Origin: an uncultured Marinobacter sp. | Lineage (GTDB): Bacteria > Pseudomonadota > Gammaproteobacteria > Pseudomonadales > Oleiphilaceae | Reading direction: 5' to 3' | Assembly: GCF_946886895.1 (NCBI RefSeq) | Contig: NZ_CAMPJO010000001.1 | Span: 186,001 to 250,000 of the forward strand | Length of the DNA: 64,000 nt | Part shown: one piece after another, positions 53,989-63,397 of the stretch | How positions within the stretch are numbered: position 1 is the stretch's first letter | Layout of the letters: each line of letters opens with the position of its first letter | Position numbers and translations under genes: made by a program | The notes under the pieces: model-generated | Databases searched by the model: none | What the model was told of the DNA's origin: nothing | What the model saw: only the letters and a program-made list of their open reading frames with translations

Positions 53989-54137
53989 CCCCAGGCACTG
54001 CCGCACCGATTTGTGTCGCATTCTGACACTCTTTGCCCGTTCCGTATTCAGCCCTATACTGTCTGGCTCCGGCGGCTGAGCTGTCCCGGTCCGTCGAGGT
54101 AGTTCGACAATCACGGTGCATGGCAAAGGGAGCGCTT

Positions 54138-55559
54138 ATGTCACCCGAACTGACCCCCATGTCAGCCATTGACCGCGCCTGGCTGAGAATGGACACGCCA
54201 ACCAATCCGATGATGATCAGCAGCGTGCTGATTTTCGACCACCCACTTTCGATTCCCCGGCTCAAGCGAACGCTCCGGGAGCGCCTTCTCTGTTATGACC
54301 GATTCCACCAGCGCGTGGTCAGCCAGAGAGGCCGGGTGTACTGGCAGGACGACCCCCTGTTCGACATTGACAACCACCTGCATCGCATCGGCCTGCCCGG
54401 TAACGCCGGCATGGCCGAACTCCAGGCGCTGGCCAGTGACCTCAACAGCACGACACTGGATTCCCGGCGGCCACTCTGGCAGATCCACTGCATTGATAAC
54501 CTCAACGGCAACGGCGGCGCACTGCTTGTACGAATTCACCATTGCATTGCCGACGGCATTTCCCTGGTTCGGGTGCTCTTGTCACTTACCGACAGAACGC
54601 CCGAGCCGAGGCTGGACCGGATAGCACCGAGACCGGATAGCAGACGATCACCCCGCTCGGCCGCTCGCCGGTTGTCCGGACGACTGGCCGACAACGCGAA
54701 AACCGCGGCCACCCAGGCCCGGCACTTCCTGCGGGCCCTGCGCCGGAATCCCGGCTACCCAATCCAGCTGGCAACCGCCGCGGGCGGTATCACCATGGAC
54801 CTGCTCAAACTCGGCCTCGCGCCTTTCGAGCCCGATACCGGCCTTAAAACACCGCTATCCGGGCGCAAACAGGTAGCCTGGGCCAAACCACTGGCACTGG
54901 CCGACGTGAAAGCCTGCGCGAAGTCGCTGGGCGGTAGCATAAACGACGTCTTGCTCTGTGCCGCCACCGGCGCCCTCCAACGGTACTTCCTGGCCCACGG
55001 GGAAACCATCCCTCCTTGCGGCATCCGCGTGGCTGTGCCGTTCAACCTGCGCCCCCGGAGCCAGCCCGTCCGTGAACTGGGCAACCAGTTTGGACTGGTT
55101 CTGGTATGCCTGCCCGTGGACGTGCCGGAGCCGGTCATGTGTTTCCATCAGGTCCAGGAAAACATGAATCGCCTCAAGCGCTCCTGGCAGGCCCAGGTCA
55201 CCTACAGCCTGCTGGATCTGTTTGGCCGGGGGCCAGATGCCCTCGAAAGGCGGGCCCTGGACTTGCTCAGCCACAAGGCCTCGGCGGTGCTTACCAACGT
55301 GCCCGGCCCCCGCCAACCTGTCTACCTGGCCGGCAGCAAACTGGTCCAACCCATGTTCTGGGTACCCCAGACCGGCAACATCGGCATCGGCATGAGCATC
55401 TTCAGTTACGCCGATACCGTACAATTCGGCATCAGCGTCGATACCGCCATCCGGGTAAACCCGAACGAAATCATGTCGTACTTCCGGGAAAGCTTTGAGA
55501 CGCTCAATCAGGCAGCACAAGCGGCCAACCAGCCCCAACTGGCCCGTCAGGCAGGCTGA
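54138..55559 (+). CDS. Wax ester synthase / diacylglycerol acyltransferase (WS/DGAT)
   Basis: About 473 residues. The catalytic motif HHCIADG (H134, H135) and conserved PLWQIHCI, VAVPFNLRP and NVPGPRQPVYLAG segments identify the bacterial WS/DGAT family, which esterifies fatty alcohols or diacylglycerol with acyl-CoA at storage lipid bodies. Marinobacter carries several such enzymes, so this paralogue's main substrate is uncertain. ATG 54138 with GGGAG is chosen over ATG 54120. It sits between smpB and ssrA. Confidence 0.93.
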   Translation: MSPELTPMSAIDRAWLRMDTPTNPMMISSVLIFDHPLSIPRLKRTLRERLLCYDRFHQRVVSQRGRVYWQDDPLFDIDNHLHRIGLPGNAGMAELQALASDLNSTTLDSRRPLWQIHCIDNLNGNGGALLVRIHHCIADGISLVRVLLSLTDRTPEPRLDRIAPRPDSRRSPRSAARRLSGRLADNAKTAATQARHFLRALRRNPGYPIQLATAAGGITMDLLKLGLAPFEPDTGLKTPLSGRKQVAWAKPLALADVKACAKSLGGSINDVLLCAATGALQRYFLAHGETIPPCGIRVAVPFNLRPRSQPVRELGNQFGLVLVCLPVDVPEPVMCFHQVQENMNRLKRSWQAQVTYSLLDLFGRGPDALERRALDLLSHKASAVLTNVPGPRQPVYLAGSKLVQPMFWVPQTGNIGIGMSIFSYADTVQFGISVDTAIRVNPNEIMSYFRESFETLNQAAQAANQPQLARQAG

Positions 55560-55646: not shown

Positions 55647-56011
55647 GGGGACGACATGGCTTCGACGCCGGTGGCGAACCCTTGGGTGCATGTCGAGATG
55701 GCAGCGAATCTCGTTAATCCAAAGCTGCAACGCAATAGTCGCAAACGACGAAAACTACGCACTAGCAGCGTAAGCTGCTAGTCGTCCTGACCGGGTCGCC
55801 CGTAGCCCGGAAGCAACATCTCAGGACGTCATCGCTTACGGGATGCTCCGTTTTCCAGAGTTCACTGGCTAACGGCTAAGATCTAAAGAACTCGGTTCTT
55901 GCACCCTGGCTCTCGGGTCGCTTGAACTTAAATCAATAGAGAGACGCTAAGCATGTAGACCTCAAGGCTGAGTACTGGCGGACGCGGGTTCAATTCCCGC
56001 CGTCTCCACCA
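55647..56011 (+). ncRNA. ssrA: Transfer-messenger RNA (tmRNA)
   Basis: 365 bases. 5' end GGGGACGACATGGCTTCGAC and 3' end GGTTCAATTCCCGCCGTCTCC-ACCA form the tRNA-Ala-like domain. The open reading frame from GCA at about 55742 encodes the tag ANDENYALAA followed by TAA, the typical gammaproteobacterial degradation tag. It rescues stalled ribosomes with SmpB. Confidence 0.98.
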
Positions 56012-58263: not shown

Positions 58264-59934
58264 TTACAGGTTGCAGGTCAGTTCCGCCAGTTCCTCGTCA
58301 AAAACCCTCCGGTTCTCGCTGTAGTCCACGGGCACGTCCACCAGGTGGACACCCCCATCAGCCAGCGCACGTTCCAGGGTCGGGCGCAGATCCTCAGTTC
58401 GGGTAACGCGGTGACCGGTGGCGCCGTAGGATTCGGCGTACTTCACAAAATCCGGGTTGCGATAGTCCAGTCCGAAGCCCTCGTACCCTTCCTGGGCCTG
58501 CTTCCACTTGATCATGCCATAGGCACTGTCGTTGATAATCAGCACCACCAGGTTGAGGTTCAGGCGAATGGCCGTTTCCATCTCCTGACTGTTCATCATG
58601 AAGCCGCCGTCGCCGCAGATCGCCATCACCTTCAGGTCCGGGTACAGCATGGACGCCATCATGCCGCTGGGCAGGCCGGCCCCCATGGAGGCCAATGCGT
58701 TATCCAGCAGTACGGTATTGTTATCGTAAGCCCGGTAATTGCGGGCAAACCAGAGTTTGTACATGCCATTGTCCAGCGCGATGATGCCGTTGTCGGGCAT
58801 CACCTGCCGGACATCATGAACAATGCGCTGGGGAATGACCGGGAACCGGTCGTCTTCCGCCCGCTCCTGCAGGTGCGCGTCCACGGCCTCCTTCACCTCC
58901 ATAAGCTGGCTGAAGTCGTGGTTGGCACACTGGCCGCAGTTCTCAGCTATGTAGTCCACACTGTTGGCGATGTCCCCCACTACCTCGTGTTGCGGGAAGT
59001 AGACCGGGTCGACATCGGCCGCACTGAAGTTCACGTGAATGACTTTCTTGCCACCCGGAGTCATGAAAAACGGCGGTTTTTCAACGACATCATGGCCAAC
59101 ATTGATCACCAGGTCGGCACGGTCGATGGCGCAATGAACAAAATCTCCGGCGGAGAGTGCGGCATTGCCCAGATAACGGGGATGTCGTTCATCCACCACG
59201 CCCTTGCCCATCTGGGTAGTAAAGAACGGAATGCCGGTCACGTTGACCAGATGAATCAGTGCCTGCGACACCCGTTTGCGGTTGGCGCCGGCACCGATCA
59301 TGATCAGCGGGTGCCGGGCGTCGCGCAGCATGTCACACGCCACATCCAGGCTCTTCTGGCTGGCGGAAGGCCGCCGGGCGTCGCTGGGCGTGAAGATATG
59401 CGTGCCCGGCTCGGGCACCTCATCGGCAATGTCTTCCGGCAGTTCCAGGTGCACCGCACCCGGCCGCTCCTCCGACGCCAGCCGGAAGGCTTCGCGAACC
59501 TTGGCGGGAATGGTGTTGGCGTTACTGATCTGGCGGGTGTACTTGGTGAGAGGGCGCATCAGGTCCACCACGTCCAGAATCTGGAACAAGCCCTGCTTCG
59601 AGGATTTGATCGGCTTCTGGCCCGAGATCATCATCATGGGCATGGCACCGAGTTGCGCGTAGGCCGCCGCCGTCACCAGGTTGGTGGCGCCGGGCCCCAG
59701 GGTAGAGAGGCAAACGCCCACCTGGCCAGTCAGGCGCCCGTACGTGGCGGCCATAAAGCCGGCTGCCTGTTCGTGGCGGTTAAGAACCAACTGGATACTT
59801 GAGGTTCGCAGAGCTTCGAGGAACGCCAGGTTTTCCTCGCCAGGCACCGCGAAAATGGTTTTTACGCCTTCATTTTCCAGCGCCCGGATAAACAATTCGG
59901 CCCCGTTGCGGGCCTGAGGTTGATCGTTGTCCAT
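58264..59934 (-). CDS. Acetolactate-synthase-like ThDP-dependent enzyme
   Basis: About 556 residues with the three-domain fold of acetohydroxyacid synthase/pyruvate oxidase: catalytic Glu E55 in NRHEQAAG, central domain IMIGAGANRKRV, and the ThDP motif GDGGFMMNSQ...IINDSAYG (D442). It would decarboxylate a 2-oxo acid and transfer the carbanion to an acceptor. No small subunit (IlvN) is beside it, and it closes a cluster with an unknown protein and an ATP-grasp protein, so biosynthetic IlvB is unlikely. ATG 59934 has AGGA upstream. Substrate unknown. Confidence 0.85.
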   Translation of the reverse strand: MDNDQPQARNGAELFIRALENEGVKTIFAVPGEENLAFLEALRTSSIQLVLNRHEQAAGFMAATYGRLTGQVGVCLSTLGPGATNLVTAAAYAQLGAMPMMMISGQKPIKSSKQGLFQILDVVDLMRPLTKYTRQISNANTIPAKVREAFRLASEERPGAVHLELPEDIADEVPEPGTHIFTPSDARRPSASQKSLDVACDMLRDARHPLIMIGAGANRKRVSQALIHLVNVTGIPFFTTQMGKGVVDERHPRYLGNAALSAGDFVHCAIDRADLVINVGHDVVEKPPFFMTPGGKKVIHVNFSAADVDPVYFPQHEVVGDIANSVDYIAENCGQCANHDFSQLMEVKEAVDAHLQERAEDDRFPVIPQRIVHDVRQVMPDNGIIALDNGMYKLWFARNYRAYDNNTVLLDNALASMGAGLPSGMMASMLYPDLKVMAICGDGGFMMNSQEMETAIRLNLNLVVLIINDSAYGMIKWKQAQEGYEGFGLDYRNPDFVKYAESYGATGHRVTRTEDLRPTLERALADGGVHLVDVPVDYSENRRVFDEELAELTCNL

Positions 59935-59965
59935 GGCTATCCTTTTGAGTCGGTGGATTCCGCAT

Positions 59966-61987
59966 TCAATCGGTTCTGGGAGGCTCCGCCTGCAGTGCAT
60001 CAGCCGGTACGCGGTCCTTGCCCCAGCTCCGGAGTACACCCTGTACTACGCGCTGCAACTCCTCATCGCTCACTTCTGCAGGCTCACCGCGTTCCAGCGG
60101 ATCGAAATGGAAGATGTAGAGCCGCGAAGTGAACTGCTCGAACGGCAGCGACGACTCGCCAAAGCGTTCACCGTGTCCGGAGGTACTCACCTTCACGTCG
60201 TCGCCCCAGTTCTGGCCGCTGTCGTTATTTGGGTTGAAAAAGTACACCCGCATCTCACCGTCCGGATCCAGCGCTGCCCGGAGGATGGTAATGGCATGCC
60301 AGCCAATGAACCGCGCCGCACTGTCGGTGACGGCGATGCCGGCCGGCTGGGGATGGATCAGCGGCTGATTGCCGTTGTAGTAAGGGTGGTAACTGGCGTA
60401 GAAGTGCCGGATAAAACCGTCCAGATCGTCCAACTGCCCGGTCGCCACATCCACATTGATGGCGAAGCCCCGGCCAGCGGACCAGCCGTGAAACTCGGGG
60501 TTCACCCACTTATGAGGGTCGCCCTCGCGCACAACACACAGCCGCCCCATCTCTGCGTAGATACGGTCCAGATGGGGAACCACCACCAGCGACACCGGGT
60601 CCAGATCCAGGGCAACCTCCGATGCAACCCCACCCGCACTGCGGGCGGAAGACACCGGCTGCCCCTCAAAGTGCATGATGATCTCGTTATCCCGGGCCGC
60701 CCAGGCCACCATCTGCAACAGATAGTCCGGGTCGTTGTAGGCCCACATGGACAGAGCCCGGGCCGATTGGCACGTCGGGTTGTTGCCCTGGCCAACCCCC
60801 AGGGGCTGGCCCAGCATGTTCAGAACACCCTGGATCAGCCAGGCCCCCGGTGATGGCTGGTACCCGTACGCCAACTGCAAACGCTCCCGGGCTTTTGGGC
60901 ACAGGGCCAGCCGAACCTGACGCCATAGCGCCGGTGCCACCGGTGGCTGGTAGAGGATGCCACGTTCAAGCGTGAGCGCCAGCCCGTAAAGCCCCTGGGC
61001 CGTCTCCGGATGGACCGATTCCCGGATCAGGGCGTGCACCAACTCCCGGTAACACAGCAGGCAGTCACGTCCGGTACTCGACAAACCCAGGGCTTCACTC
61101 AACAGAGTATCGTGGTCACCGACAATAAAGCGGACAAAGGTGGCGTGGTAGGGGGAAACCAGCCCGGTATCATGCATGGAACGGGCAAACCCGGTCGCTT
61201 CGTTCTGCAGCGCCACGCCATCCATGGATTCCAGCCGCTGCTGGTAGATGGCGGTGCCAGGGTCTTCGCTGCAGCCTCGCGTCGGGCCATACAGGCTTGA
61301 AATCAAACGGTCCGCGCCACGACCGGCACCACCCAGATCCGCCTCCGGGTCCGCCCGGCAGATGGCGATCTGGGTAATCATCCGGCGTACGTCGGCCACC
61401 TGGATCGGTCGCTGCTCCAGAATCCTCCAGATTTCTTCGATCAGGCTGTCGATGACGTGTTCGTAGCCAATATGGGTGGCCACATGCTGAACCACGGCCT
61501 GACTGATCAGGGCCAGCTTGCCCTGCTCACGCTCCGCCTCCCCGGTCATGCCGAACAACAGGCCCAGGTTGATCGCCAGCACCTGGGTCAGGTAATGATG
61601 GGCCTGCTCGGCCGAGACACTGGGATGCAGATATTGGTCGCGCGCCACCGCCAGTAACCGGAGTTCACTGAGTGCCTCAATCACGACGGTGTCGGCGTTG
61701 GTGCTTTGCAGGGCAAAGGTGGTCAGCGACGGCAGCAGGTTGCCGGGCTCAGCCCAGTCCGTGCCAGAAAACACGCCGGCTTCTTCCAGGCGTTGCGCCC
61801 GGGCCTCGATCACGCCACACCCGCCGGGCTGCAACAGCACCCGGCGGGCGTTATCAAGCAGACGCGGGAGCTTGCCCACCTTGGCAAACGGCCGGCTCTC
61901 CGCAACCGCCGCAAGGGCATCGTCGAGATTCTGCACCAGCTTGTCCATGTTGACAGCCGGTGCGCCGCCCGGTTGATGATCACTCAA
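59966..61987 (-). CDS. Large unknown protein with papain-like Gln/Cys-His-Asn pattern
   Basis: About 673 residues. A TTG at 61987 with GAGGAA seven bases upstream fits best. The N-terminal ~390 residues are mainly helical without membrane segments. The C-terminal third has QGNNPTCQSARAL (Q400, C406), a strand FIGWHAITILRA (H564) and VYFFNPNNDSGQNWG (N585). The spacing Gln-x5-Cys equals Q19-C25 of papain, and His then Asn at strand ends is the clan CA order. A cysteine peptidase, amidase or transglutaminase-like enzyme is inferred, not shown. It lies between an ATP-grasp gene and a ThDP enzyme gene. Confidence 0.7.
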   Translation of the reverse strand: MSDHQPGGAPAVNMDKLVQNLDDALAAVAESRPFAKVGKLPRLLDNARRVLLQPGGCGVIEARAQRLEEAGVFSGTDWAEPGNLLPSLTTFALQSTNADTVVIEALSELRLLAVARDQYLHPSVSAEQAHHYLTQVLAINLGLLFGMTGEAEREQGKLALISQAVVQHVATHIGYEHVIDSLIEEIWRILEQRPIQVADVRRMITQIAICRADPEADLGGAGRGADRLISSLYGPTRGCSEDPGTAIYQQRLESMDGVALQNEATGFARSMHDTGLVSPYHATFVRFIVGDHDTLLSEALGLSSTGRDCLLCYRELVHALIRESVHPETAQGLYGLALTLERGILYQPPVAPALWRQVRLALCPKARERLQLAYGYQPSPGAWLIQGVLNMLGQPLGVGQGNNPTCQSARALSMWAYNDPDYLLQMVAWAARDNEIIMHFEGQPVSSARSAGGVASEVALDLDPVSLVVVPHLDRIYAEMGRLCVVREGDPHKWVNPEFHGWSAGRGFAINVDVATGQLDDLDGFIRHFYASYHPYYNGNQPLIHPQPAGIAVTDSAARFIGWHAITILRAALDPDGEMRVYFFNPNNDSGQNWGDDVKVSTSGHGERFGESSLPFEQFTSRLYIFHFDPLERGEPAEVSDEELQRVVQGVLRSWGKDRVPADALQAEPPRTD

Positions 61988-62040
61988 TTGCACTTCCTCA
62001 GGGCCTGCATCAAACCCATATGAATTAATGCGTGCGCTGA

Positions 62041-63273
62041 TTATACATAGAAATCGAGCTCTTCCTGATGTTTGAGCAGGTCTCGCATGGTGTAGGGGTC
62101 CTCACCGAAGAAATAGATAAGCCCCCAATGCGTACCGAATGCGGTGCGCTTGGTGACGGTTTCCTCCACGGGCGGTGTCAGCTCGTGCGACTCGAAGTAC
62201 TCGTGGTTCTCGGTCTCCTCCGGTATCTCCAGACGGCTGACCACACGGCGACGGGGGTATACACCGAAGCAACCGGCGTAGCCCTTGGCATCCACCACTT
62301 CTTTCGGGAAGAATGCGGTGATTTCCTCGTCCGTGGTTTTCGGGTCGAACGCCAGGATCATCCCCTGGTAGGCGTTGAAGCCATAGGAGCGCTCCAGCAG
62401 TTCGAACACCTTGAAGCCCGGCGGACGGTAGGCCACTTCGCCAAAGTACATGGTGCCATCGCTGGTCACGAAATACTCCGGATGCACGAAACCGAAATCG
62501 ATATCGAATGTCTTGATCAGTTTTTCGATTTCCGAGGTAATCTGGGCCCGGTATCGTTCCAGGTCCGGCGTGGCCGGCACAAACACCGAGTAACCGAGGG
62601 TGACGTACTCGGAAATATTCAGGAACCGGATCTTGCCGTTATGGATCCAGGCTTCAACCGCGAACTCCCAGCCGTCCAGGTGGGACTCCATCAGCACCGG
62701 AAACTCCTCATCGGGAATGGTATCCACTTCATCCGGTGTCCGGATCACCCGGTGGCCAAGGCAACCGGCCTTGTCGAAGGCCTTGAGGTGTATGGGGTCG
62801 TTGGGGTCGCCGTCGAGCTTGAGCAGCGTCTGGTTTACCCGCTTCAGGAAACGAATCACGTCTTCCCGGTCATGGGCTTCCTCGAAGATGCCCACGCGGA
62901 TCCCGCCCAACTGGGCGCGACGCTTCATCAGCGCCTTGTCACGCAGCAGCATGGCCTGGCCGAACAGTCGCGGGTTGTCCATCAGTACCGAGTTGATGGC
63001 GCCGGCCCACTCTACCGTTTCCTCGAACAGCGGTATGGCAACATCCACCCCCATGTCCTTGAGGGTTTGCGCAATTTCCACGGAGCGGTCGTTCAGGCGT
63101 TCGAAATTCCAGGGCACGTAGGGGATATCGTGCTCTTTGCAGTAGGGCTCGGCCCAGTCGGGAGCGACAACAACATAACGGCGGTCAAATTTATCGGCGG
63201 CCTCAATGGCGTTCAGGCTCCAGCCGAGCAGCGCGATGTACCCCTTCTCAGGATTGTAGTTTTGCTCTGTCAT
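62041..63273 (-). CDS. ATP-grasp domain protein, unknown substrate
   Basis: 410 residues with an N-terminal pre-ATP-grasp domain (IALLGWSLNAIEAADKFDRRYVVVAP) and an ATP-grasp fold: LLRDKALMKRRAQLGG, EFPVLMESHLDGWEFAVEAWI and metal-binding FGEVAYRPPG (about E279). Such enzymes join a carboxylate to an amine or thiol through an acylphosphate. The C-terminal ~90 residues form an extra domain. GGAGAG precedes the ATG. First gene of the three-gene cluster, 53 bases before the next. Confidence 0.85.
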   Translation of the reverse strand: MTEQNYNPEKGYIALLGWSLNAIEAADKFDRRYVVVAPDWAEPYCKEHDIPYVPWNFERLNDRSVEIAQTLKDMGVDVAIPLFEETVEWAGAINSVLMDNPRLFGQAMLLRDKALMKRRAQLGGIRVGIFEEAHDREDVIRFLKRVNQTLLKLDGDPNDPIHLKAFDKAGCLGHRVIRTPDEVDTIPDEEFPVLMESHLDGWEFAVEAWIHNGKIRFLNISEYVTLGYSVFVPATPDLERYRAQITSEIEKLIKTFDIDFGFVHPEYFVTSDGTMYFGEVAYRPPGFKVFELLERSYGFNAYQGMILAFDPKTTDEEITAFFPKEVVDAKGYAGCFGVYPRRRVVSRLEIPEETENHEYFESHELTPPVEETVTKRTAFGTHWGLIYFFGEDPYTMRDLLKHQEELDFYV

Positions 63274-63305: not shown

Positions 63306-63333
63306 AGCCTACGCTGACCGATGCAAATGGCAA
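63306..63333 (-). promoter_or_regulatory. Possible promoter of the ATP-grasp cluster
   Basis: On the minus strand TTGCCA (63333-63328), 16 bp, TAGGCT (63311-63306). A modest match. It lies after the mqo terminator and 33 bases before the ATP-grasp start codon, the only place a cluster promoter can be. Confidence 0.4.
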
Positions 63334-63353: not shown

Positions 63354-63397
63354 AAAAAAGCACTCTGGCTATCGGCGGATAAAACCAATAGCCACAG
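63354..63397 (-). terminator. Terminator after mqo
   Basis: On the minus strand CTGTGGCTATTGG pairs with CCGATAGCCAG (63397-63365), followed by T6 (63359-63354). It ends mqo and isolates the ATP-grasp cluster. Confidence 0.8.

Follow-up and report, generated by a model that had tools for sequence, protein, structure and literature searches.

In glutathionylspermidine (trypanothione) synthetase-amidase, an ATP-dependent ligase and a cysteine amidase make and break one amide, and the two activities reside in a single fused polypeptide, whose amidase is of the CHAP type and whose synthetase belongs to a family of its own. One source describes the pairing of synthesis with hydrolysis (PMC2784880), and two others describe BtrJ, an ATP-grasp enzyme, and BtrH, a papain-like acyltransferase, in butirosin biosynthesis (PMC4431377, PMC10318531). 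Here we describe a locus of an uncultured Marinobacter sp. (assembly GCF_946886895.1, contig NZ_CAMPJO010000001.1), located in a stretch of 64,000 nucleotides (positions 186,001 to 250,000) that we refer to as the window. Open reading frame (ORF) analysis confirmed the three co-directional minus-strand genes, with their coordinates and gaps of 53 and 31 bases, on which an original prediction had built a three-gene cluster. They encode, in this order, an ATP-grasp ligase of 410 aa (ATPg; 62041..63273), an undescribed protein of ~675 residues (MID; 59966..61987) and a thiamine diphosphate (ThDP) enzyme of 556 aa (58264..59934). Judging from gene order and distribution among genomes, the conserved unit is the two-gene ATPg-MID module and not the three-gene cluster, and the pair occurs in scattered marine and soil bacteria. 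We found no description of this pair in the literature searched, and no mention of it in the available part of a classification of papain-like families (PMC10318531).

Results

ATPg and MID as a conserved pair

When genome contigs were scanned with an ATPg alignment, at least 592 stretches matched and 563 were confirmed; the best 80 were kept, and one Halomonas locus found via MID in a plasmid collection was added. ATPg is followed by MID on the same strand in all 81 loci. Since 80 of these had been retrieved with ATPg and represent its nearest relatives, whole genomes were sampled as well. Among 299 Pseudomonadota, an even draw from a larger group, MID was present in eight genomes and ATPg (E ≤ 1e-50) in the identical eight, while both genes were found in the identical two of 246 Actinomycetota genomes. 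Seed genomes were included in these surveys and few candidates were scored per genome, so that copy numbers are lower bounds. The probability of the eight-of-eight coincidence under random placement is ~7e-16, or 2.6e-14 without the seed, values that are made optimistic by kinship among the genomes. An order-level sample contained MID in 15 of 115 genomes, at 28 full-length places and as one short fragment; ATPg adjoins 19 of the 28 and is absent beside the other nine, and none of the 15 genomes lacks an adjacent pair. The two genes also stay together in a divergent second type (MID ~52-58% and ATPg ~75-85% identical to the window's proteins), in tandem, reversed or divergent (head-to-head) order. 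By these patterns of co-occurrence and order, ATPg and MID form an evolutionary unit. Weighing against this are two of the 14 ATPg places in the Pseudomonadota survey (L103 and L105), which have no MID within the retrieved 15-17 kb; solo copies of the genes also exist.

Clustering of the ORFs around the pair revealed no common gene for a carrier protein, for transport or for additional biosynthetic steps, and a full pathway is therefore seemingly not encoded there. This bears on an account that is possible if somewhat unlikely, namely that the two enzymes act sequentially in small-molecule biosynthesis, with ATPg making an intermediate, dipeptide-like or of the acyl-carrier kind, which MID, as an acyl- or aminoacyl-transferase, turns into the final product. 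Models for such an arrangement are provided by BtrJ/BtrH of butirosin and by phytochelatin synthase acting on glutathione; however, besides the missing pathway genes, neither BtrH_N nor phytochelatin synthase was among the families that MID matched with E values up to 1 allowed.

Three Marinobacter-like genomes (G001, G181 and G077) have four or five full-length MIDs each (the multi-copy loci are L082-L085, L109, L110, L112, L113 and L123-L125). Some of these copies have no neighboring ATPg, and those that were aligned retain intact catalytic residues. By eye, a NADAR-like ORF lies close to both the solo-ATPg locus L105 and the solo-MID locus L082, and a similar ORF resembling a major facilitator superfamily transporter is common to L105 and L084. 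Also by eye, an ORF of ~330 aa resembling a metallo-beta-lactamase-fold hydrolase immediately follows the solo MIDs of L082 and L124, and in L109 it lies ~3.7 kb farther downstream of MID. MID is split over two reading frames in L013 and L031, as is the ThDP gene of L031, which may represent real frameshifts or assembly errors.

Family and conservation of ATPg

The ATP-grasp motifs noted in the original prediction are borne out by a match of ATPg to Pfam PF13535 (E 8.9e-5), though at 22.6 bits it falls under the curated cut-off of 27 bits; many of the close relatives listed have a precomputed PF13535 annotation. The nearest solved relative by sequence is the L-amino-acid ligase BL00235 (3vot; E 0.0011, profile E 0.0015), and Glu196, Glu203, Glu266, Glu279 and Arg283 of ATPg align with the same residues of its ATP site and are unchanged in 13 of 13 aligned ATPg rows. 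The profile match and the conserved Glu/Glu/Arg of the ATP-Mg site place ATPg, by sequence, in the ATP-grasp superfamily.

ATPg of the window is 87-90% identical to its counterparts in Halomonadaceae, Guyparkeria, Methylophaga, Streptomyces, a Nitriliruptoraceae metagenome-assembled genome (MAG) and a Rhodococcus MAG. Identity to the Streptomyces protein is 87%, whereas DnaK encoded in the window, the sole yardstick run, is 55% identical in the same comparison and 81, 75 and 73% identical to DnaK of the Halomonadaceae genome, Methylophaga and Guyparkeria, respectively; no DnaK was found in the Rhodococcus MAG. By this measure ATPg is exceptionally conserved. In 13 comparisons of ATPg genes, 43-71% of the four-fold degenerate sites differ, where independent codon choice expects 55-72%, and those compared between the window and Streptomyces are near the independent-choice limit, which makes a recent transfer unlikely. 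The hosts are marine and halophilic gammaproteobacteria and actinomycetes. In a tree of MID, in which deep nodes are weak and the L115 row is an artefact, 10 of the 11 actinobacterial rows group in a single clade, next to a row from Oceanisphaera. The location of this clade among gammaproteobacteria suggests an old horizontal spread of the module; the ATPg tree is poorly resolved.

Start, domains and predicted active site of MID

The likely start of MID is the TTG at 61987, with a GAGGAA that ends six bases upstream. An alternative in-frame GTG at 61993, from which residues are numbered here, directly abuts the GAGGAA; the stop is at 59966. Starts of MID picked by script in the window and in loci L001-L081 are mostly TTG or GTG and not ATG, unlike those of ATPg, which hints at lower translation of MID. 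No signal sequence was noticed by eye, and the protein is probably cytosolic.

Searches of Pfam and NCBIfam with the window's MID gave no match at E up to 1, and no credible sequence relative was found in the PDB. When 60 members of the MID set A3 were searched against Pfam at E up to 10, only six families were matched, Peptidase_C2 not among them (best E 0.012, each in at most five members). In a structure model, a helical N-terminal part (aa about 16-365) precedes a C-terminal domain (aa about 366-640; predicted template modeling score, pTM, 0.81) that is predicted to have a papain-like fold and whose best structural matches are calpain cores, with modest scores. The Cys/His/Asn blocks to which the original prediction had drawn attention proved invariant, with Gln402, Cys408, His566 and Asn587 present in 95 of 95 aligned rows (93 distinct sequences). 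The predicted nucleophile is Cys408 (codon 60770..60772, within GQGNNPTCQSARALSMW), six residues after Gln402, while His566 (60296..60298, within GWHAI) and Asn587 (60233..60235, within FFNPNND), also encoded on the minus strand, are the predicted general base and third catalytic residue. The model begins a helix at residue 408, with Cys408 at its N-terminus, and has strands at 567-575 and 581-586. A Gln/Cys/His/Asn set with the Cys at a helix N-terminus and the His and Asn by successive strands defines the papain-like superfamily. Both the ordered set and the match of the modeled fold to solved members make MID a predicted member, in agreement with the papain-like guess made originally. Across the aligned sequences, the catalytic residues are conserved in ATPg as well as in MID.

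Calpains, the best structural matches, are regulatory endoproteases, and solo MIDs with intact catalytic residues exist. MID could then be a protease that regulates or processes some other protein, with ATPg serving the same process at a different bond. We regard this as quite unlikely, given that the pairing persists through gene rearrangement and that the two genes coincide at the genome level in two samples.

The ThDP gene as a local neighbor

The third gene contains the ThDP motifs reported before, in the form of three TPP_enzyme domains (Pfam, each E 2.5e-28 or better). The encoded enzyme resembles an ordinary PRK08322-type acetolactate synthase: it passed the model NF006187 (acetolactate synthase large subunit, PRK08322; 877 bits, cut-off 509), and among solved structures acetolactate synthase 13bb is closest to it (PDB, E 2.5e-149). 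An ordinary IlvB, an outcome that the original prediction had seen as contrary to its proposal, is not what the models return (TIGR00118, 355 bits against a cut-off of 538), and the score is also under the cut-off of the AlsS model.

This gene adjoins the pair in 26 of the 81 loci, all Marinobacter-like: 25 belong to the 37 loci that carry the name Marinobacter, and the other is a MAG labeled Halomonas. The trio of this MAG (L010) has a Marinobacter-like look, with identities of 94, 87 and 91% to the trio of the window, and the MAG is probably mislabeled or mis-binned. The ThDP gene was not seen beside the pair in any of the 43 loci other than this MAG and the 37 named Marinobacter, nor in 55 of the 81 overall, counting L054 and L073, which end too early after MID to tell. 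We searched for an orthologue in eight genomes without the gene beside the pair (six Marinobacter, one Halomonadaceae and one Streptomyces). Two of the six Marinobacter genomes hold an 81-82% identical orthologue beyond the 10 kb retrieved around the pair and one has a 64% relative, while in the other three, as in the Halomonadaceae and Streptomyces genomes, nothing exceeded ~31% identity.

The original prediction had proposed a cluster for making and processing an amide-linked metabolite, with the ThDP enzyme as a source or user of a 2-oxo acid. The 31-base gap in the window and the 26 adjoining loci speak for such a three-gene pathway, but we consider it highly improbable in view of the 55 loci without the gene beside the pair, the six of eight genomes in which no close orthologue was found and the acetolactate synthase family match. 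Comparison of co-occurrence and order across relatives, which had been suggested as a check on the trio, thus upholds the link between the ATP-grasp and papain-like genes and removes the ThDP gene, which is rarely adjacent. On its distribution, the ThDP gene is a Marinobacter-specific bystander, outside the conserved pair and its mechanism.

Boundaries of the locus

As had been described, the pair is bounded upstream by the end of mqo. The 3′ end of this gene (Pfam PF06039, 274 bits) is on the minus strand too and is followed by a terminator-like hairpin with an 11-pair stem and a T-run (63366..63394, minus strand). This is the longest stem among five terminator-like matches in the region, a number that is not in excess of the shuffle mean of 5.1; several relatives have a hairpin of differing sequence at the equivalent spot, as seen by eye in an alignment of 15 upstream regions. 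Between the hairpin and ATPg there is a promoter-like element, TTGCCA-N16-TAGGCT (63306..63333, minus strand). A looser pattern, fitted post hoc after viewing the same alignment, is present in 22 of 39 upstream regions (the window and 38 Marinobacter-set loci), where base shuffles expect 0.025 per set. Elsewhere in the window, an ORF that by eye resembles a wax ester synthase/DGAT adjoins a transfer-messenger RNA gene (54033-55559 and 55647-56011).

Discussion

MID represents a family without a Pfam or NCBIfam match that is apparently papain-like, and it is linked to an ATP-grasp ligase of exceptional conservation. We propose, with a probability of about 0.55, that the module joins two enzymes that act on one shared bond, either against each other or one after the other: ATPg as the ligase, and MID as a cysteine-dependent hydrolase or transferase. 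Action on the same bond is suggested by the gene pairing together with the precedents of glutathionylspermidine/trypanothione synthetase-amidase and BtrJ/BtrH. ATPg would use ATP to activate a carboxylate and join it to an amine or thiol, giving a short amide- or thioester-linked compound or an amino-acid tag on a protein. The calpain/papain-like domain of MID, behind its long helical domain, would form an acyl-enzyme on Cys408 from the bond made by ATPg and hand the acyl group on, either to water, which amounts to removal, or to another acceptor, which amounts to transfer. The acetolactate synthase encoded downstream would have no part in this.

More tentatively, and with rather low odds, the pair may be a bacterial writer-eraser module in which ATPg attaches an amino acid or a small acyl moiety to one particular, highly conserved protein and MID removes it. 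Tubulin tyrosine ligase, an ATP-grasp enzyme, and vasohibin, a papain-like one, follow a comparable logic. The helical domain of MID would recognize the target protein, and a fixed partner surface would help to account for the higher conservation of ATPg than of DnaK across phyla; horizontal spread followed by multiplication in Marinobacter would have led to several MID erasers per genome.

The ATPg-MID module defines a testable two-step chemistry, in which a bond is made and then broken or moved, and it is small enough for direct expression and assay. The ThDP gene, in turn, illustrates that proximity in one genome is not the same as membership of a module.

Among the known systems, BL00235 shares with ATPg the acidic residues and the Arg of the ATP site, but just ~115-125 residues of ATPg align and the substrate is not transferable from 3vot. 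The calpain core (Peptidase_C2, MEROPS C2) is the best structural match of the MID C-terminal domain, and the Gln-x5-Cys, His-Ala and Asn-Pro layout of MID corresponds to that of calpain; nevertheless, identity is only 9-13% in the 19 top calpain structural alignments, and the lack of a Peptidase_C2 profile match (E up to 1 for the window's MID, up to 10 for set A3) places MID outside family C2. Phytochelatin synthase (C83, 2bu3) has no sequence match to MID, which is larger and paired with its own ligase. Like BtrJ/BtrH, the pair combines an ATP-grasp enzyme with a papain-like one, but genes for a carrier protein or for aminoglycosides were not noted around it, and BtrH_N does not match. Neither the glutathionylspermidine synthetase nor the CHAP profile matched the window's proteins at E up to 1. 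In contrast to the fused synthetase-amidase, the module consists of two genes, draws on another ATP-grasp family and joins a calpain-like domain to a long helical one.
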